64,000 bases of DNA, from positions 149,496-213,495 of the forward strand of contig NZ_FPAF01000006.1 in assembly GCF_900116295.1 (NCBI RefSeq), given 5' to 3'. The notes under the pieces are model-generated. The model was not told the DNA's origin. It searched no databases and saw only the letters and a list, made by a program, of their open reading frames with translations. Positions 45,304-58,816 of this stretch are shown one piece after another. Both the position numbers and the translations under genes were made by a program. The number at the start of each line of letters is the position of its first letter. Position 1 is the stretch's first letter. The DNA is from Bacillus sp. 103mf (GTDB taxonomy: Bacteria > Bacillota > Bacilli > Bacillales > Bacillaceae_G).

Positions 45304-45342
45304 TGAAAAAAGAATCTCTAAAAACTACTTTTAGAGATTCTT
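45304..45342 (-). terminator. Terminator after the kdpD-like gene
   Basis: Minus strand: AAGAATCTCTAAAA, loop GTAGT, TTTTAGAGATTCTTTTTTC. Confidence 0.9.
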
Positions 45343-46486
45343 ATCCTCTTTGATCCGCCACAATATGAATATCAATATTCTTCGTCTGTCTCATAATTTC
45401 ATTTACAATGGAACCTTTGCGAATTTCTTCCCATCTTGTTCTTGCTGATTGTCCAAGCAAAATTTGTGTGACTTGTCGCTCTCTTGCCACCTTAATAATT
45501 GCATCTGCCGGCTTACTTCCTTTTGCTTCTTCTAATAAAAAGGTTGCATCAAATTGATTCGTTAACGCTTTCCATTCTTCAATAACTTGTTTTTTTGCTT
45601 CTGATATAGATTCAATCGTTTCTCTTTCTACATTTAGTACATATAATTCTGCATTTAAACGGTTTGCCATGCGCCATCCACGGCGAATAAGCTTTTCTGC
45701 TGTAGAACTGTACTGCACGCAAACAAGAATCTTTTCCTTTACTCCAATTGGTTCCTCAGTAAATTGACTAATTTTCTCATCCATATCATCCGCAACTTCT
45801 CGAAGTGATAATTCGCGGAGCGCCCCTAAATTATTAAGGGTAAAAAAATGATTTAAGCTCCGTTGAATTTTTTCTTCCTTATATATCTTTCCGTCCATCA
45901 ATCGTTTTCGAAGTACTTCTGGCGTTACATCCACAAGCTGAATTTCATTTGCCTTTTGTAAAATGAAGTCAGGAACGCGCTCTCTTACTTTGACTCCTGT
46001 AATTTGCTCAACAATATCGTGAACACTTTCCAAATGTTGAATATTAAATGCAGACAAAACATCAATGCCAGCATCCAATAATTCTTCCACATCCTGATAG
46101 CGTTTTTTATGTTTCGAACCAGGGATATTCGTATGGGCTAACTCATCCACAATAACAACTTGTGGTGCACGTTTTATAATTGCTTCAACATTCAGTTCTG
46201 GAAACACTTTTCCTTTATAATGAATTTCTTTTAAAGGAACCGCTTCTAAATCAGCAATCGCCTCTTCTGTTTCTTTTCGCTCATGAGTTTCGATGAGACC
46301 AATTACAACATCAATGCCTTCTTTTCGCATCTCTCTTGCATCAAAAAGCATTTTATAACTTTTTCCGACTCCAGGAGCTGCTCCGACATAAAGCTTTAAC
46401 TTCCCCCTGTTTAGTTGACGAATATATTCTAAATATTCTTCTGGCGTTCGTCTTTGAAACGTTGGCTTATAGTCATCTGCATACAT
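45341..46486 (-). CDS. kdpD: Truncated KdpD (KdpD plus USP domain, no kinase)
   Basis: 381 aa. The KdpD N-terminal domain shows Walker A GAAPGVGKS, GLIETHERKETEEA and VDELAHTNIPGSKHKKRYQDV; a universal-stress-like domain follows (about residues 240-380, VCVQYSSTAEKLIRRGWR, ILLGQSARTRWEEI). The membrane, HisKA and ATPase domains of a full KdpD (about 900 aa) are absent and no kdpE is in the window. As the USP domain of S. aureus KdpD binds c-di-AMP, this form could be a c-di-AMP or potassium sensor acting directly on KdpFABC (inference). ATG 46486 is 8 nt after AAAGGGTG. Confidence 0.9.
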   Translation of the reverse strand: MYADDYKPTFQRRTPEEYLEYIRQLNRGKLKLYVGAAPGVGKSYKMLFDAREMRKEGIDVVIGLIETHERKETEEAIADLEAVPLKEIHYKGKVFPELNVEAIIKRAPQVVIVDELAHTNIPGSKHKKRYQDVEELLDAGIDVLSAFNIQHLESVHDIVEQITGVKVRERVPDFILQKANEIQLVDVTPEVLRKRLMDGKIYKEEKIQRSLNHFFTLNNLGALRELSLREVADDMDEKISQFTEEPIGVKEKILVCVQYSSTAEKLIRRGWRMANRLNAELYVLNVERETIESISEAKKQVIEEWKALTNQFDATFLLEEAKGSKPADAIIKVARERQVTQILLGQSARTRWEEIRKGSIVNEIMRQTKNIDIHIVADQRG

Positions 46487-46512: not shown

Positions 46513-46552
46513 AATGCTACCTCAATCTAAACGATTGAGGTAGCATTGTTAT
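46513..46552 (-). terminator. Hairpin between kdpC and kdpD
   Basis: AATGCTACCTCAATC, loop, GATTGAGGTAGCATT: a perfect 15-bp stem in the gap between kdpC and kdpD with little T tail. It may attenuate kdpD expression or mark the operon end. Confidence 0.75.
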
Positions 46553-47139
46553 TATTTAATCATTTTTTGTAATTCTACATTTAACTTCAACACGTTGACA
46601 CGATCTTCTCCAAATAACCCAAGTGCTTGCCCTTCTGTTTGCGATTCAATCAGCTTATTAATTTCTTCTTTCGGAATATTCGTTATTTTAGAGATACGAT
46701 CTACTTGTACGTAAGCCGATTGTGGGCTAATATCTGGATCTAATCCTGAACCTGAATTCGTTACTAAATCCATCGGAACTTCCGTAACAGGAACTTCCCG
46801 ATTTTCCTTCTTCCAATTTTCCACACTTTCTTCTACACGTTTTACTAAATCTGGATTGGACGGTGCATAGTTATTAGATCCAGATGCTTCTGACTTATAT
46901 TCTATACTAGAGACACGTCCATGAAAATAACGTGGGTCTGTAAAATTTTGACCAATTAATTTCGAACCAATGACTTCATTGTTTTCATTATATATAAGGC
47001 TCCCGTCTGCATTATCTTTCATGACCGCTTGTGCAATTCCTGTAACTAGCAGTGGATATATAAGCCCGCATATAACAAGAAATGTAAAGGTTACACGAAT
47101 GACAGGTGAAAGTATCTTTTGTTTTTCAAACATTTTCAT
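46552..47139 (-). CDS. kdpC: Potassium-transporting ATPase subunit KdpC
   Basis: 195 aa; one N-terminal span then the periplasm-side domain with [46 protein letters not shown], all diagnostic of KdpC. It stabilises KdpB with ATP. An ATG two codons in (47133) is also possible. 12 nt after kdpB. Confidence 0.96.
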
Positions 47140-47151
47140 TTCCCCTTTTCT

Positions 47152-49251
47152 TTAAATAAACAATCCGACAATCATGTCAATCAGCTTAATGCCGACGAAC
47201 GGAACAATGACTCCACCAAGTCCGTAAATAAATAGGTTACGTCCTAACAATGCATTAGAACTCATCGGTTTATAAGCAATCCCTCTCATCGCTAGCGGAA
47301 TAAGCATCGGGATAATAATCGCGTTAAAGATAAGCGCTGATAAAATCGCTGATAGCGGTGAATGTAATTTCATCACGTTCAGAGCTTCCATTTGCGGAAT
47401 TGCCAATGTAAACATCGCTGGGATAATCGCAAAGTATTTCGCAATATCATTTGCGATACTAAATGTTGTTAGCGCACCGCGTGTCATTAATAACTGCTTA
47501 CCAATCCCTACAACCTCAATAATTTTCGTTGGGTTTGAATCTAAATCAATCATATTTGCTGCTTCTTTCGCTGCAGCTGTACCACTATTCATCGCCAGAC
47601 CAACATCCGCTTGCGCTAAAGCTGGTGCATCATTTGTACCATCACCTGTCATCGCAACAAGCTTTCCTTTGTCTTGCTCTGCTTTAATGACCGCAATTTT
47701 ATCTTCTGGTTTACATTCTGCAACAAATTCATCTACACCAGCTTCTTTCGCAATGGTTGCGGCAGTAAGCGGGTTATCACCTGTACACATTACCGTTTTA
47801 ATCCCCATTTGACGAAGCTGTTCAAATCGTTCGCGCATACCTGGTTTTACAGTATCTTTTAAATAAATTAATCCGTAAATACGATCATTCGCTGCAACTG
47901 CAAGCGGTGTACCGCCTTCTTTTGCAATTAAATCCGCTTTTTGATTTAAGTCTTTCGGAACTGTACCGCCTTGCGATTGTACCCATTCAATCACAGCGCC
48001 AACCGCACCTTTTCGTACTTTTACACCATCCGTTAAGTCCACACCACTCATACGTGTCTCAGCTTTAAAGGGAACAAACTCACCTTGTTCAGCAAGTGTA
48101 CCGTTATAAGAGAGTGCTTTTGATTGTACGTATTCAATAACCGAGCGTCCTTCTGGCGTCTCATCTAACACAGAGCTAAGCGCTGCCCATTTTGCAACTT
48201 GTTCAATTGTTTCATTTCCTACTGGTAAAAGCGTATGTGCCATACGATTACCAAATGTAATTGTACCTGTTTTATCTAAAATAATTGTGTTAATATCACC
48301 AGCTGCTTCCACCGCTTTACCACTCATCGCTAACACGTTAAACTTCGTTACACGGTCCATACCTGCAATCCCAATTGCGGATAACAAACCACCAATTGTT
48401 GTTGGAATTAAACAAACAAGAAGTGCAACGAGTATAGATGTATCAATTTGAAAACCAAGATAATTCGTAAAGATCGGCAATGTCACAACAACGATTAAGA
48501 AAATAAGTGTTAAACTCATTAAGACCGTATTAAGAGCAATTTCATTTGGTGTTTTTTGACGAGATGCCCCTTCTACTAAAGAAATCATTTTATCTAAGAA
48601 AGATTCACCAGGATTACTTGTAATTCGAATTGTAATTTCATCACTTACCACCATTGTTCCGCCTGTAACGGAGCAAAAATCGCCGCCAGCCTCTTTCATA
48701 ACTGGTGCGGATTCCCCTGTAATAGCTGATTCATCAACAGACGCTAAACCTCGGATGACTTCTCCATCACTAGGAATCATTTCACCTTGTTTTACAAGAA
48801 CAACATCACCTTTTTTTAGTTCAGTTGCTGAAACTCTAGCAACACTTCCATTTTCTTTTATTACATTTGCAAATACATCTTTTTTCGATTGTTTTAAAGA
48901 ATCAGCTTGTGCTTTCCCGCGTCCTTCTGCTAATGCTTCTGCAAAATTAGCAAACAAAACAGTGAATAAAAGAATAAGAGAAACCGTTATATTGAACCAC
49001 CCTGGGATACTACTAGATCCATTAGGTAAAAATGATAAAATTAATGTTAGGAAAAACCCAATTTCTACCACGAACATAATCGGATTTTTTACCATCACTC
49101 GTGGATTCAATTTTGTAAAAGCTTCTTTTATCGCATGTGTAATAATGTCACGATCCATCGTTTTTGCTTGTCTCACTTCATTTTCGACTGCCGTTTTTGG
49201 CGATACAATCGATTGATTCGGTTGTTTATCTTTTACCACTACAGGTTTCAT
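47152..49251 (-). CDS. kdpB: Potassium-transporting P-type ATPase subunit KdpB
   Basis: 699 aa P-type ATPase. Phosphorylation motif [15 protein letters not shown] loop [10 protein letters not shown], hinge [21 protein letters not shown], and seven spans. Subunit of the high-affinity K+ pump KdpFABC. Second ATG at 49251 chosen because GGAGGG is 6 nt upstream; the first ATG at 49254 is only 3 nt away and equally in frame. Confidence 0.97.
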
Positions 49252-49264
49252 CATGTACCCTCCA

Positions 49265-50932
49265 TTACTTCAATGTAAGAAATTCCGCAATTGGTCCTAA
49301 CACTAGCATTGGGAAGAACGTTAATGCTCCAACAATTACAATTGTTCCAATGAAAATGCCGCCAAATAAACTATTATCTGTTCGGAATGTTCCGATTGTT
49401 TCTGGTACTACCGTTTTTTCTTTTAATGAAGCCGCTACAGCCAGCATTGTAATTAAACTGAAATAACGTCCTAAGAACATCACGATACCAGTCGTAATAT
49501 TCCAAAATGCTGTATTGTCTGCTAAACCTTCAAAACCTGAACCGTTATTAGCTGCCGAAGAAGTATATTCATATACAACTTGTGTCAAACCGTGAAAACC
49601 GGAGTTTGAAATTGCATCTGTTCCAAAATGAGTTGAAAGAGCTAATGCTGAAAATCCTAAAATAAGTAAAGGATGGAATAGTATTGTTACTGCAATCAAT
49701 TTCATTTCCTTTCCTTCAATCTTTTTCCCTAAAAATTCTGGTGTACGTCCAACCATTAATCCCGATATAAAGACCGCGATAATCGCGTACATAATAATAT
49801 TAATAAATCCTGCACCAACCCCGCCGTATACTGTATTTAACATCATGTTTACAAGTGGTACGAGTCCTCCGATTGGTGTCAACGTATCATGCATTGTATC
49901 AACAGCACCTGTTTCCGCTGCAGTTGTTACTGTTGCGTATAGTGAAGAAAATACTGTTCCAAAGCGGACTTCTTTTCCTTCTAAGCTGCCTTGGGTATGC
50001 TGCATTCCCATTTCATTTAACGCTGGGTTTCCATGTAACTCTGACGTTACAATTGTTGCAAATCCCATTAAAAATACGATGAATAAAGAAACGAAAAGAA
50101 CGCGTCCTTGTTTTTTATTCCCTACCATTCTTCCATATGTGAATGGTAAAGCTGTTGGTAACAGCATCATAAGCATCATTTGTAAAATGTTACTGATTTG
50201 ACCTGGGTTTTCAAATGGATGCGTTGAATTTGCCCCGAAAAATCCTCCGCCGTTGTTCCCTAATTCCTTAATAGAAACGAAAGAAGCAACCGGACCACGT
50301 AATATACTTTGTTTCACACCTTCAATTGTATGAGCTGTAACCGCTCCTTCTAACGTTTGCGGTACACCAAGCGCAACGAAGATCAATGCTGCTATAAATG
50401 CAATTGGAAGAAAAACTCTCGTTAAAGCACGTGTAAAATCTACGAAGAAATTTCCAAGTTCTTTCCCTGCTAAACCTCTTATAAAAGCCATTACAATTGC
50501 TAATGTTGTTGCCGGTGCTGTAAACATTAAAAACGTAATTCCGATTAATTGTGATAAGTACGAAACACCATTTTCACCGCTGTAATGCTGTAAATTTGTA
50601 TCTGCCATAAAACTAATCGCTGTATTAAAAGCGAGTGTAGGTTCCATCCCCTCAACATGAGCTGGATTTAATGGCAATACACCTTGTAGGCGAAGTATGA
50701 AATAGACAACAACAATCATAAATCCATTAAGCGCAACTAATGATAATGCGTATTGCTTCCAACTCTGGTTATAAGGTTTCACACCGGAAATTTTAAAAAT
50801 AATATTTTCAAAAGGTCCAAACACTTTATCCAATTTGCTATTCCCTTGAAACGCCTTCTCTAAATAAATCCCGGTTGGCTTTGCAACAAGAACAAATAAT
50901 AACATTGTGACCAAAACGGCAATCCAAATCAT
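49265..50932 (-). CDS. kdpA: Potassium-transporting ATPase subunit KdpA
   Basis: 555 aa ion-channel-like subunit with four repeated P-loops; filter regions visible in [44 protein letters not shown] and [16 protein letters not shown] upstream. Follows kdpF by 19 nt. Confidence 0.97.
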
Positions 50933-50951: not shown

Positions 50952-51032
50952 TTAAAACTTTTCTGGATTTAATAGCGCATAAACTAAGTACACAGTAAGT
51001 AAGCCAACAATAATGGATACTGCAATAGTCAT
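50952..51032 (-). CDS. kdpF: Potassium-transporting ATPase subunit KdpF
   Basis: 26 aa single-span peptide ending YLVYALLNPEKF, the typical KdpF C-terminus. Its ATG overlaps the TGA of a 34-codon ORF upstream (ATGA), so the two are coupled. GAAGGGAAG serves as ribosome site. It stabilises the KdpABC complex. Confidence 0.92.
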   Translation of the reverse strand: MTIAVSIIVGLLTVYLVYALLNPEKF

Positions 51033-51174: not shown

Positions 51175-51215
51175 CATAAAAAAGAACACTGAGGATCTAC
51201 TCAGTGTTCGAAAAT
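51175..51215 (-). terminator. Riboswitch-controlled terminator before kdp
   Basis: Minus strand: GAACACTGAGTAGATCCTCAGTGTTC then TTTTTTAT. It lies between aptamer and first gene. Confidence 0.9.
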
Positions 51216-51243
51216 GAACAACACAAAAGTAAACCTCCTCTCC

Positions 51244-51370
51244 AAACGCTTACGAGGTTAGCTGTCGGATTCGGGCCTAAAGAGTAGCCCTACTTTCATC
51301 ATGAAAGATTCACCCCAAGTGACAATGCACAAAATTGGTTCCCCCGCTCCATTTCTGGACTCAGCGATAT
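51244..51370 (-). promoter_or_regulatory. c-di-AMP riboswitch (ydaO-yuaA class) of the kdp operon
   Basis: Minus strand: CGCTGAGTCCAGAAATGGAG, CGGGGGAACCAATTTTGTGC, ACTTGGGGTGAATC, GTAGGGCTACTC, CCCGAATCCGACAGCTAACC, TCGTAAGCG, the conserved patches of the ydaO class in order. A terminator follows, so high c-di-AMP should shut off the K+ pump (known behaviour of the class). Confidence 0.95.
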
Positions 51371-51604
51371 CAGGTTGTTTTCTGGAAATTTTATGAACAA
51401 TTTATGAATGTAAATATACTCCTCTAAATTTCACTTGTAAAGAGGTAAAATAGCTAAAATATAAAAGTATAAGACCTTTTAAACGCTTACATTAAGGATA
51501 AATACATCTTTATCATCTTTTTTCTTTTATTTTCTTCTTTTTTCATTATGTATACGTTCTTTTGCAAATAAAAAAAGAAGATTATCTCTAAAAATCAAAT
51601 TTAA

Positions 51605-51745
51605 CTTCCAGGCATATGAGTCAAATACAGTATAACCTGCTCTTCTCTTTTTGTTTGAAACCTCGCTCGTGGCACAAAAAGGCCCTGACCGCTTCTATGC
51701 ACGGCCAGAGCCTCTCGCCCTTCCTAAAAAATGCAGTTTTATACC
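51605..51745 (+). repeat. Family A interspersed repeat, copy A9
   Basis: GCATATGAGTCAAATACAG, TTTGTTTGAAACCTCG, GGCCCTGACCGCTTCTATGC, ACGGCCAGAGCCTCTCGCC, TTCCTAAAAAATG. First of a tandem pair. Confidence 0.87.
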
Positions 51746-51749
51746 GTTT

Positions 51750-51915
51750 TTTCAACATAAACATCACTGCCACGCTGAATAAAAAAGGGCCACTACTTGC
51801 TTGCTCCCTCTGTTTTACAACTCGCTCGTGGCACAAAAAAGCTCTGACCGCTTCTACGCACGGCCAGGTGCTCTCGCCCACCTAAAAAAAGAGGTTTTTA
51901 TACTAGTTTTTCAAT
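51750..51915 (+). repeat. Family A interspersed repeat, copy A10 (tandem with A9)
   Basis: ATAAACATCACTGCCACGC, CTGTTTTACAACTCGCTCG, GCTCTGACCGCTTCTACGC, ACGGCCAGGTGCTCTCGCC, CACCTAAAAAAAG. Both A9 and A10 end with TTTTATAC then TTTTTCAA, so the boundary is repeated. Confidence 0.87.
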
Positions 51916-51940
51916 TCATATTGATAGATAACCTTCGAAA

Positions 51941-52177
51941 CTATAAAAAAGACCGTAAGTTACGACCTCGAATATATACTTGCACCAATTCTGCATGTCG
52001 CTTCTCATATTCGATAATGTCTTGTTCTAAATATAAACGGATATCTTCTGGCGGAAGAATCACATATGGCTTCGGAAAGAATGGATCATGTTCTGCTAAT
52101 TCATGTACTCGTTCTAACGATACTGCCCAGCGCCTTGCTAATTCACGGCACAATAATACTTTCATCGCTTCTCTCAT
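51941..52177 (-). CDS. Small winged-HTH-like protein in a c-di-AMP-riboswitch operon
   Basis: 78 aa: LLCRELARRWAVSLERVHEL looks like a helix-turn-helix of the excisionase/MerR type and is followed by FPKPYVILPPEDIRLYLEQD, a wing-like part, then a charged helix. DNA binding is inference. GGAGG lies 8 nt upstream of the ATG, 17 nt after the end of the upstream gene, so the two form one operon under the riboswitch at 52702-52826. No named family recognised. Confidence 0.7.
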   Translation of the reverse strand: MREAMKVLLCRELARRWAVSLERVHELAEHDPFFPKPYVILPPEDIRLYLEQDIIEYEKRHAELVQVYIRGRNLRSFL

Positions 52178-52194
52178 ATCCGATTCCTCCGCCC

Positions 52195-52596
52195 CTACTC
52201 TAAAGTCAAAAACGAAATATTATCACAAGTTGTAAACACCACTAACTTAATGCCAATCGTTTCATAGAGGTGCTTGGGATATTGTTTATTTCGCGTGACA
52301 ACTGTAATAGGCGCGGTAAAAGAAGAGCGAATACGTTCAGCGAAGAAGCTAATTGTAGACAATTCATCTCCTAGTAAAATCGCTTTTTTAGCTCCTTTGC
52401 ATATGTTCACAATCATGCTCGGATCATCCGGACAGCAATATGCTTGTTGAAATCCACATGCTTTCACTTCACTTACCACATACTCACTCGCTGCAAAAAT
52501 GACCATTTCACTTTGAAACGGTACTAAATCCTTTAAACTCTTTACTTTCGCAGCTTCTCCTACACAAATGAGCGTGTACTCTTTTTCTGCATCCAT
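52195..52596 (-). CDS. RCK/TrkA-N-like protein under a c-di-AMP riboswitch (uncharacterised)
   Basis: 133 aa, soluble. The pattern SEMVIFAASEYVVSEVKACG, FQQAYCCPDD, GAKKAILLGDELSTISFFAERIR, ITVVTRNKQYPKHLYETIGI and LVVFTT has the alternating strand/helix rhythm of RCK nucleotide-binding domains of K+ transporters, though the glycine-rich loop is weak. Family assignment is inference. ATG 52596 is 9 nt after AAGGAGG; the ATG at 52605 abuts it. The c-di-AMP aptamer and the kdp neighbourhood suggest a role in K+ or osmotic control. Confidence 0.68.
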   Translation of the reverse strand: MDAEKEYTLICVGEAAKVKSLKDLVPFQSEMVIFAASEYVVSEVKACGFQQAYCCPDDPSMIVNICKGAKKAILLGDELSTISFFAERIRSSFTAPITVVTRNKQYPKHLYETIGIKLVVFTTCDNISFLTLE

Positions 52597-52616
52597 GCAC
52601 TGCATCCTCCTTCACA

Positions 52617-52650
52617 TAAAAGAATTTTTAAGTATAGATTAAAATTCTCT
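52617..52650 (-). terminator. Putative riboswitch terminator before the RCK-like gene
   Basis: Minus strand: AGAATTTTAATCTATACTTAAAAATTCT followed by TTTATG. AT-rich stem, modest strength, correctly placed between aptamer and gene. Confidence 0.55.
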
Positions 52651-52701
52651 TATACTAGTCGGACCGATGAATTGCTGTATTCACTTGCACCATCCTCTCT
52701 C

Positions 52702-52826
52702 AACACGCTTACGGAGTTAGCTGTCGGATTCGGGCTTTGAGAGTAGCCCTACCTTCGAAAAAGGATTCACCCCAAGTGACAATGCACAAAGTTGGTTCCC
52801 CCGCTCCAAAGTCTGGATTAAGCGTT
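52702..52826 (-). promoter_or_regulatory. Second c-di-AMP riboswitch (ydaO-yuaA class)
   Basis: Minus strand: CGCTTAATCCAGACTTTGGAG, CGGGGGAACCAACTTTGTGC, ACTTGGGGTGAATC, GTAGGGCTACTC, CCCGAATCCGACAGCTAAC, CGTAAGCG. The same class as the kdp aptamer 1.4 kb away; it precedes the two-gene RCK/HTH operon. Confidence 0.95.
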
Positions 52827-52883
52827 CTTAAAAATAGATTCTGGCTGATATATTACTCCTAATTTTGGAAAAAGTAAATATAA

Positions 52884-52916
52884 AAAAAAGCCAATTTTTT
52901 TAATTGACTTTTCTAA
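52884..52916 (-). terminator. Terminator of the thi operon
   Basis: Minus strand: AAAAGTCAATT, loop, AATTGGCTTTTTTTT. Confidence 0.8.
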
Positions 52917-52928
52917 GAATATACATAT

Positions 52929-53741
52929 TTATGCATGTACATTTCTACGTCCATACGCAAAATGGTTCGTTGGTCCGTGACCGCTGCCTATGTTCAGCTC
53001 ATCTTCAATTGCTATACTAATAAAGTTCTTCGCTTCCCGAACTGCATCTGCAATTTCGTAACCTTTCGCGAGTCCTGCTGTTACAGCTGCGGCAAACGTA
53101 CAACCACTTCCATGTGTTTGTATAGAAGCAATCCGTTTACTTCTATACCCTATAAACACATTTCCATCAAACAATAAGTCAATTACTTCATTTCTTTGGT
53201 AAGCTGCATGTCCGCCTTTCATAACGACAAACTTTGCACCTAAATCATGCAGCATCTTCGCCGCTTCTTTACTGTCTTCAATCGTATGAATCTTCATTCC
53301 TGTTAATACTTCTGCTTCAGGAACATTCGGCGTAATTACCGTTGCAAGCGGCAATAAATGTTCTTGTAATGCCAAAACAGCTTCTTGTTGTAATAACGAT
53401 GCTCCGCCTTTTGCGATCATAACAGGGTCTAGTACAATATTATTCCATGAAAATGATTTAATATTTTCAGCTACGATTTTAATAATTTCACTACTAAATA
53501 ACATCCCTAGTTTCACTGCATCTGGCGTTAAATCCGTACCGATAGAATGTAACTGCTTTTCAATTCCTTCTACAGGAACAGGATACACCCCTTGTACACC
53601 AAGCGTATTTTGAGCCGTAATCGCTGTAATAGCTGTCATTCCGTACACACCGAGCTCTTGAAATGTTTTTAAATCTGCTTGAATCCCCGCACCGCCGCCG
53701 CTATCGGAGCCAGCAATCGTTAATGCTTTATTCACTCTCAT
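52929..53741 (-). CDS. thiD: Hydroxymethylpyrimidine/phosphomethylpyrimidine kinase ThiD
   Basis: 270 aa, cytoplasmic kinase acting twice on HMP to give HMP-PP. ALTIAGSDSGGGAGIQADLKTF, LDPVMIAKGGASLL, and the anion-hole/catalytic GSGCTFAAAVTAGLAKG motif are present. ATG 53741 follows AAAGGGTGA by about 6 nt; a GTG at 53750 overlaps that site. Last gene of the operon. Confidence 0.95.
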   Translation of the reverse strand: MRVNKALTIAGSDSGGGAGIQADLKTFQELGVYGMTAITAITAQNTLGVQGVYPVPVEGIEKQLHSIGTDLTPDAVKLGMLFSSEIIKIVAENIKSFSWNNIVLDPVMIAKGGASLLQQEAVLALQEHLLPLATVITPNVPEAEVLTGMKIHTIEDSKEAAKMLHDLGAKFVVMKGGHAAYQRNEVIDLLFDGNVFIGYRSKRIASIQTHGSGCTFAAAVTAGLAKGYEIADAVREAKNFISIAIEDELNIGSGHGPTNHFAYGRRNVHA

Positions 53742-58469: not shown

Positions 58470-58503
58470 ACAGCAAACAAAAGAAAACCTCATTTGTTGT
58501 TTC

Positions 58504-58587
58504 CACTTCCCTACGCTAGCATCACCTAGATCAGGTCATAAGGGTTAAGGTTTTTACCTCTCTCAGCTTTTAAGCACCCCTAGTGGT
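58504..58587 (-). promoter_or_regulatory. thiM-like element: TPP riboswitch, gene-proximal copy
   Basis: Minus strand: CACTAGGGGTGCTT, GCTGAGAGAGG, ACCCTTATGACCTGATCTAGG, GATGCTAGCGTAGGGAAGTG: the THI-box consensus with CUGAGA and ACCUGAUCUGG-type core. Followed by its own terminator at 58438-58469. Confidence 0.97.
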
Positions 58588-58605
58588 GTTCTATAAAATT
58601 TTCAA

Positions 58606-58643
58606 TAAAAAATCCCCGTTTCTATGCATAAAGAAACGGGGAC
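58606..58643 (-). terminator. Terminator between the two TPP modules
   Basis: Minus strand: CCCCGTTTC, loop, GAAACGGGG then ATTTTTTAT. Confidence 0.9.
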
Positions 58644-58661
58644 GTTATTTATATCGTCCAA

Positions 58662-58755
58662 GTTGCTTCCCTACGCTAGCATCATCTAGATCAGGTTCAA
58701 GGGTCAAAGACTATAGGTCTTACTCTCAGCTAGCAACACTAGCTCCCCTAGCATT
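58662..58755 (-). promoter_or_regulatory. TPP riboswitch, promoter-proximal copy
   Basis: Minus strand: TGCTAGGGGAGCTAG, GCTGAGAGTAAG, ACCCTTGAACCTGATCTAG, GATGCTAGCGTAGGGAAGC. With the copy at 58504 it forms a tandem aptamer-terminator arrangement. Confidence 0.97.
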
Positions 58756-58816
58756 ATATTCATTTAACATAGTCAGTATACCATCGCCATATCTCATCGG
58801 CAACTCTTTTCATTTA

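Follow-up and report, generated by a model that had tools for sequence, protein, structure and literature searches.

The 64,000-nucleotide stretch of Bacillus sp. 103mf analysed here (the window) carries two small genes, orfA and orfB, beside the operon for Kdp, a high-affinity K+ pump that in Bacillales and Paenibacillales is controlled by cyclic di-AMP (c-di-AMP) via RNA and a short KdpD. The original prediction, made from the sequence, described orfA-orfB as an uncharacterised two-gene operon under its own c-di-AMP riboswitch and a candidate potassium-control module. All the elements discussed lie on the minus strand, in the order thi terminator, riboswitch, orfA, orfB, two repeats, kdp promoter-like site, second riboswitch with terminator, kdpFABC and short kdpD:

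52884..52914, minus: intrinsic terminator closing the thi operon upstream (folding energy -10.5 kcal/mol, z -4.13, 0/200 shuffles equally stable)
52850..52878, minus: putative promoter, TTTACT (52878), 17 nt, TAATAT (to 52850); weak consensus, absent from the promoter scan's list
52690..52834, minus: c-di-AMP riboswitch aptamer 1, before orfA-orfB (RF00379, 110.2 bits, E 2.2e-25)
52621..52650, minus: AU-rich hairpin in the orfA leader, downstream of aptamer 1; in the fold its base also pairs with the orfA Shine-Dalgarno region; role presumed
52606..52613, minus: Shine-Dalgarno sequence of orfA, GAAGGAGG (from sequence position)
52195..52596, minus: orfA, 133-aa RCK_N-like protein by profile searches, the window's member of its family (open reading frame)
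52186..52193, minus: Shine-Dalgarno sequence of orfB, GGCGGAGG (from sequence position)
51941..52177, minus: orfB, 78-aa probable helix-turn-helix (HTH) protein, excisionase-like (PHROG_4745 match and orthologue in genome G133, see below)
51804..51914, minus: 111-nt direct repeat downstream of orfB, one of two copies, containing a terminator-like hairpin (fold no better than shuffles, z -0.56)
51645..51755, minus: the other 111-nt copy, 78% identical to the one above, with a stable hairpin then a T run (z -3.45)
51413..51441, minus: kdp promoter-like site, TTTACA, 17 nt, TATATT (promoter scan)
51233..51376, minus: c-di-AMP riboswitch aptamer 2, of kdp (RF00379, 113.3 bits)
51184..51209, minus: kdp riboswitch terminator (-14.1 kcal/mol)
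50952..51032, minus: kdpF, ATG at 51032 (by eye from the sequence)
49265..50932, minus: kdpA (open reading frame, with KdpA matches at other kdp loci)
47152..49254, minus: kdpB, with TGES motif (open reading frame, motif check)
46552..47139, minus: kdpC (Pfam KdpC, E 5.7e-73)
45341..46486, minus: short KdpD, 381 aa, with KdpD and Usp domains (Usp by Pfam) and no histidine kinase (NF038185 KdpD_non_kinase, 642.1 bits, cut-off 550)

The riboswitch and leader of orfA-orfB

Aptamer 1 matches the full RF00379 model (positions 1-134) far above the gathering cut-off of 38 bits and is, by covariance score, a c-di-AMP riboswitch. The complete ydaO-class aptamer that had been placed at 52702-52826 falls inside this match, so the two genes do stand under a riboswitch of their own as proposed. 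The Rfam scan of 51480-53000 returned no further family of note besides c-di-AMP riboswitches. Because a strong intrinsic terminator closes the thi operon upstream, orfA and orfB are probably a separate transcription unit. They are 17 nt apart and each is preceded by a Shine-Dalgarno sequence; the orfA ATG lies 9 nt after GAAGGAGG and gives 133 aa (136 aa from an alternative ATG further upstream). For the kdp copy of this riboswitch in B. thuringiensis, c-di-AMP binding and expression switching have been demonstrated (PMC6488665; statements on cited papers refer throughout to the parts of each that were available).

The hairpin claimed before orfA is present at 52650-52621 and is weak as a terminator: its core reaches -2.5 kcal/mol, compared with -14.1 kcal/mol for the kdp riboswitch terminator, and the fold of 52600-52700 modestly beats shuffles (z -1.8, 14/200 as stable). 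A strong or G+C-rich terminator was sought in the orfA leader after aptamer 1 and not found, and this candidate is rejected. Since the leader lacks a G+C-rich terminator, orfA may be controlled at the level of translation, possibly through masking of its Shine-Dalgarno sequence.

Two further features of the surroundings were recorded. The exact 14-nt core of the 111-nt repeats (51645-51755 and 51804-51914) occurs in 0/316 loci, and two tandem thiamine pyrophosphate (TPP) riboswitches precede the thi operon at 58491-58759.

OrfA and the RCK_N domain

OrfA belongs to an unnamed family of single-domain proteins of about 130 residues, a family that is large and tied to kdpA, which goes beyond the view of the original prediction. 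No Pfam or NCBIfam model matches OrfA above cut-off, including the curated TrkA_N model (PF02254). Searching the PDB with a profile of 46 members (A8) gives KtrA (5but) at E 7.2e-7, in a chain holding two KtrA copies, followed by a 'TrkA domain protein' (4gvl, presumably GsuK) at 0.0011, KtrC (6i8v) at 0.011 and YuaA (2hms) at 0.015. Of the 26 sequences at E<=3, 15 carry the name Ktr, TrkA or YuaA; the others include several de novo designs and no receiver. The alignment of the family with KtrA is nearly gapless across 107 positions. TrkA_N is also the commonest sub-threshold Pfam match (7/46 members at E<=0.1, best 0.0039), and an NCBIfam scan of the same members gave scattered single-member matches only. 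When the family profile is scored against known domains, the medians are 15.5 bits for RCK_N (n=14), 6.9 for receivers (n=25) and 2.2 for Usp (n=25), with at most 2.8 bits on reversed RCK_N and receiver sequences; raw hhalign scores are 32-43, and none of 40 column shuffles exceeds 17.

Several results weigh against this assignment. The E-value of 5but is inflated by the KtrA duplication, a single copy alone giving 0.13. The reverse test is weaker: run on the 46 members, an RCK model has a median of 4.9 bits and a receiver model 3.0, the latter scoring one reversed member at 5.3 bits. Comparison by hhalign is ambiguous, with RCK_N at 91% and receivers at 61% for A6, and 61% and 90%, respectively, for A8. 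The first, 19-row profile (A1) found the receiver ArlR in the PDB at E 1.4. Of the earlier description of OrfA as RCK/TrkA-N-like, what stands is a remote profile likeness to solved RCK_N domains; curated cut-offs are not reached and hhalign leaves the choice against receivers ambiguous. Taken together, the profiles make an RCK_N-like family likely.

GxGxxG is the nucleotide-binding loop of RCK_N/TrkA-N domains, and the motif GxGxx[GAS] is present in 14/14 RCK_N controls and in 0/46 family members. Open frames of the family (127-172 aa) end shortly after the last matched strand, any extra length being N-terminal; this leaves no room for an RCK_C domain which, judged by frame length, OrfA lacks. 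With the motif lost and RCK_C missing, OrfA is probably not itself a nucleotide sensor. GKG-type relatives (L104, L105, L106, L161 and L215; L105 is not in the tree) retain part of the nucleotide motif; their branch is very long (4.4), and they may represent a distinct derivative of RCK_N.

Linkage of orfA to kdpA

A close-relative contig scan with the single protein and tblastn of plasmids and phages found no relatives of OrfA and suggested an orphan, a view overturned by whole-genome searches. When 397 Bacillales genomes are searched in six frames (threshold E<=0.01), the single query finds relatives in 19 genomes, some weak, and a 19-row profile in 24. A partial match in G177 (E 0.0068) and a second match in G009 were dropped, giving 23 carriers; a divergent candidate in G339 (L180, E 0.0065) stands outside this count. 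KdpA was detected by Pfam in 61/397 genomes, or 58 after removal of weak partial matches (G053, G200, G226); leaving out a fragmentary gene (G001) and a split one (G330) gives 56 full-length kdpA loci. All 23 carriers fall among the 58 kdpA genomes (hypergeometric 7e-22, a value that ignores relatedness). In 18 of the 23, orfA lies on the same strand at most 1.3 kb upstream of kdpA, with orfB or an HPr-like frame in between in six of them and with orfA short or degenerate at L158 and L159. Elsewhere, orfA overlaps the 3' end of short kdpD (G009, L213), was found as a fragment alone near kdp (G211), or is located away from it (G266, G328, G163), under tandem riboswitches in G266 and G328 and with no riboswitch detected at the G163 orfA.

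One genome, G133 (L103), repeats the order of the window: riboswitch, orfA, orfB, riboswitch, kdpA. OrfA shares 41-43% identity (E 6.2e-28) with an orthologue that another genome carries at the corresponding position. Ratios of non-synonymous to synonymous substitution (dN/dS) were sought for 12 pairs, three of which gave no value: eight computable pairs of other family members, not all independent and two with dS near 2 or more, give 0.05-0.19, and window OrfA against L103 gives 0.24 with dS saturated. By the conserved orthologue at the same place and the low ratios within the family, orfA is a real gene under purifying selection.

In Paenibacillales a 22-row profile (limit E 0.001; weakest genome 6.4e-14) finds the family in 225/389 genomes, for a total by profile of 248 genomes in two orders. 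Fifty-two loci were examined, comprising the best-scoring L265-L296 (four of which come from three genomes) and 20 hand-picked lower in the listed ranking (L297-L316), a set biased to sequences resembling the kdp-linked seeds. Within 1.8 kb, a same-strand c-di-AMP riboswitch lies upstream in 46/52 and kdpA downstream in 37/52; both are present in 31, the riboswitch alone in 15, kdpA alone in six, and no locus has neither. Among the riboswitch-only loci, nine (L272-L276, L278-L280, L283) look closely related to each other and L281 adjoins kdpC-kdpD. The six kdpA-only loci form one clade in the tree (support 98/94), and in 4/6 a response-regulator-like gene of 235-254 aa lies upstream. For three of the six the riboswitch search covered a 1.5 kb flank; in the longer loci none was detected at L062 and L069, and at L064 one on the opposite strand only. 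The tie to kdpA thus seems to persist through loss of the riboswitch or a change of control, which argues for a role of OrfA with the pump itself. The link of the locus to potassium control, as originally suggested, is borne out by this comparative linkage of orfA to kdpA and the c-di-AMP riboswitch.

Against so close a tie stand the 38/56 Bacillales kdpA loci that lack a counted orfA upstream, showing that the pump occurs alone, and the position of orfA away from kdpA in 3/23 Bacillales genomes and 15/52 Paenibacillales loci. Because orfA sits apart from kdpA in the latter cases, co-transcription with kdp is not obligatory. The type of KdpD was considered as a determinant of orfA and set aside (orfA is present at 15/36 kdp loci with short and 3/20 with long KdpD, a non-significant difference by Fisher's test, p 0.07). 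At one locus, L254 of G070, an orfB remnant lies by kdp, broken by a frame resembling a transposase by eye, and the genome has no orfA match. The kdp riboswitch and KdpD of G070 score the same as those of G133, and the locus is an apparent natural loss of orfA and orfB with kdp retained.

The tie does not extend to orfB. OrfB matches PHROG_4745 'DNA binding protein' over residues 3-63 (E 0.0014, with two relatives reaching 1e-11 and 1e-13) and the DNA binding protein of Geobacillus phage TP-84 over residues 1-60 (33% identity, E 1e-4). It has no Pfam match and no useful PDB match, and its relatives reach Pfam HTH_3/HTH_7 at 0.015, below cut-off. By these matches OrfB is a probable HTH protein, in line with the winged-HTH-like protein first proposed. 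Matches at E<=0.01 occur in 13/397 Bacillales genomes, some interrupted by stops, and orfB adjoins orfA only in G133, where the orthologue is 50% identical, that is in 1/23 Bacillales carriers of orfA. The claim that the two genes make up a module does not survive this count, which also rules out OrfB as an obligate partner of OrfA. Because orfB adjoins orfA in one relative only, the pair is lineage-specific, and OrfB would be a lineage-specific HTH add-on, perhaps an autoregulator.

Other features were noted at the kdp loci surveyed. A c-di-AMP riboswitch lies at most 1.8 kb upstream of kdpA in 53/56 Bacillales loci (L103-L119, L150-L191), including 17/20 with long KdpD; the kdp riboswitch has been described in 12 species, in mutual exclusion with KdpDE (PMC6488665), and the present count scored KdpD length, not kdpE. 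A variant riboswitch occurs at L104-L106, L108, L111, L118, L156, L158, L159, L165, L167-L170, L173, L175, L177, L181, L184-L186 and L194 (e.g. L106:7087-7223), scoring 72-85 Rfam bits in six copies compared with 89-113 for others. Twenty-two copies were selected by a 23-nt core, and all of them have the surrounding 53 nt in common, with one ambiguous position; this invariance and a swapped helix suggest extra constraint or altered ligand specificity. An HPr-like frame of 90-112 aa lies between riboswitch and kdpA at L115-L117, L119, L163 and L176. The frame of L117 passes PF00381 (26.5 bits, cut-off 23) with a match from residue 18, presumably beyond the usual phospho-histidine site. Finally, an MpsC/DUF2294-type gene (Pfam MpsC) follows its own c-di-AMP riboswitch near kdp at L112:9000-9437, and the gene at L106:6373-6762, also near kdp, resembles it by eye.

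A possible role of OrfA and known potassium systems

KtrB and TrkH, which are gated by RCK rings, form one superfamily with their distant relative KdpA (PMC4714889, PMC6987127). The membrane subunit neighbouring orfA, in 37/52 Paenibacillales loci and 18/23 Bacillales carriers, is this same KdpA. In B. thuringiensis, c-di-AMP drops under K+ limitation and the riboswitch then allows kdp readthrough (PMC6488665). On this background OrfA could be an RCK-like accessory regulator dedicated to Kdp and produced at low c-di-AMP and hence low K+, a reading to which the linkage and profile evidence gives about an even chance. Low K+ would lower c-di-AMP, both riboswitches would permit expression, and OrfA would be produced together with KdpFABC and short KdpD. 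It would then act on the pump at the protein level, and the simplest way would be to dock onto the cytosolic face of KdpA; docking is proposed because KdpA shares a superfamily with KtrB and TrkH, which are gated by RCK proteins. An alternative target would be KdpD, which turns the pump off: the short form is a serine kinase that is stimulated by c-di-AMP and inhibits KdpB (PMC11018627), and B. anthracis KdpD binds c-di-AMP (PMC11302148). A bolder version, tentative and on the doubtful side, holds that the KdpFABC of Bacillales and Paenibacillales has an RCK-derived subunit controlling KdpA as KtrA controls KtrB, whose production is gated by c-di-AMP, its own nucleotide sensing having been lost and sensing moved to RNA and short KdpD.

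Other roles can be weighed against the same loci. OrfA may be a transcription-side regulator, acting with OrfB or KdpE-type proteins on kdp or other K+ genes and not on the pump. The phage-type DNA-binding family of OrfB, which directly follows orfA, would fit such a role, as would the receivers that come second among profile matches of the OrfA family and the response-regulator-like gene upstream at four loci without a detected riboswitch. It is unlikely, however: orfB adjoins orfA in one other genome only, OrfA shows no DNA-binding part, and the other listed Bacillales kdp loci have no orfB relative between riboswitch and kdpA. OrfA might instead work in trans on K+ systems other than Kdp, for instance by joining KtrA/KtrC RCK rings and so tuning Ktr upon Kdp induction; such a role would suit a single RCK_N-like domain and the riboswitch-controlled copies without adjacent kdpA (15/52 Paenibacillales loci, L281 lying by kdpC-kdpD, and G266 and G328). 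This is rather improbable, since adjacency to kdpA is commoner and all 23 Bacillales carriers have kdpA, a restriction that Ktr partners would not predict with TrkA_N genes in 8/8 genomes tested.

The fold may also have been misjudged, OrfA being pseudo-receiver-like instead of an RCK_N derivative and perhaps docking on KdpD or KdpE. The A8 hhalign comparison and the ArlR match with A1 point that way, as do a near-invariant Glu and Thr which, compared by eye, lie near receiver active-site places. HMMER with A8 on the PDB and Pfam nevertheless leads to RCK/TrkA_N and to no receiver, the profile medians favour RCK_N, and the KtrA alignment is nearly gapless (the strand count being judged by eye), all of which makes a receiver origin improbable. 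OrfA could be a bystander with an unrelated function, encoded in the c-di-AMP regulon and brought near kdp through common riboswitch use. This would account for the riboswitch at 46/52 examined Paenibacillales loci but is very improbable given the six loci of one clade that keep kdpA as neighbour without a detected riboswitch.

The proposed accessory regulator of Kdp can be set beside several described systems. No title or abstract opening among the literature matches listed names an OrfA-like protein, and the original riboswitch surveys, which lay outside the search, may list some such genes. In contrast to PHROG_4745 and the DNA binding protein of Geobacillus phage TP-84, OrfB is encoded on the chromosome behind a c-di-AMP riboswitch; its match scores are weak. 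As in the kdp riboswitch of B. thuringiensis and B. anthracis (PMC6488665, PMC11302148), aptamer 2 and its terminator lie at the published distance from the kdpF start (147-346 nt upstream), and the promoter-like site at 51413-51441 agrees with the B. thuringiensis start site about 370 nt before kdpF (PMC6488665). The available parts of those accounts make no mention of an upstream riboswitch or of orfA-orfB. The KdpD of the window is of the short type (NF038185) described as c-di-AMP-sensing in PMC11018627, and its KdpB keeps TGES, but OrfA is a distinct protein, absent from what was available of that account.

The closest likeness is to KtrA and KtrC (5but, 6i8v, 2hms), cytosolic regulators of K+ uptake that give OrfA its best profile matches over nearly its full length; in Bacillus, ktrAB is also under this riboswitch class (PMC6488665). 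In contrast to them, OrfA has no RCK_C, its family lacks GxGxx[GAS] in 46/46 members, and its gene is linked to kdpA and not to ktrB. If the proposed role is true, this conserved RCK-like companion would be a missing piece of Kdp control, joining RCK gating to a P-type ATPase, and the uncharacterised two-gene operon is narrowed to something concrete to study, a single small soluble protein for which a candidate partner can be named.
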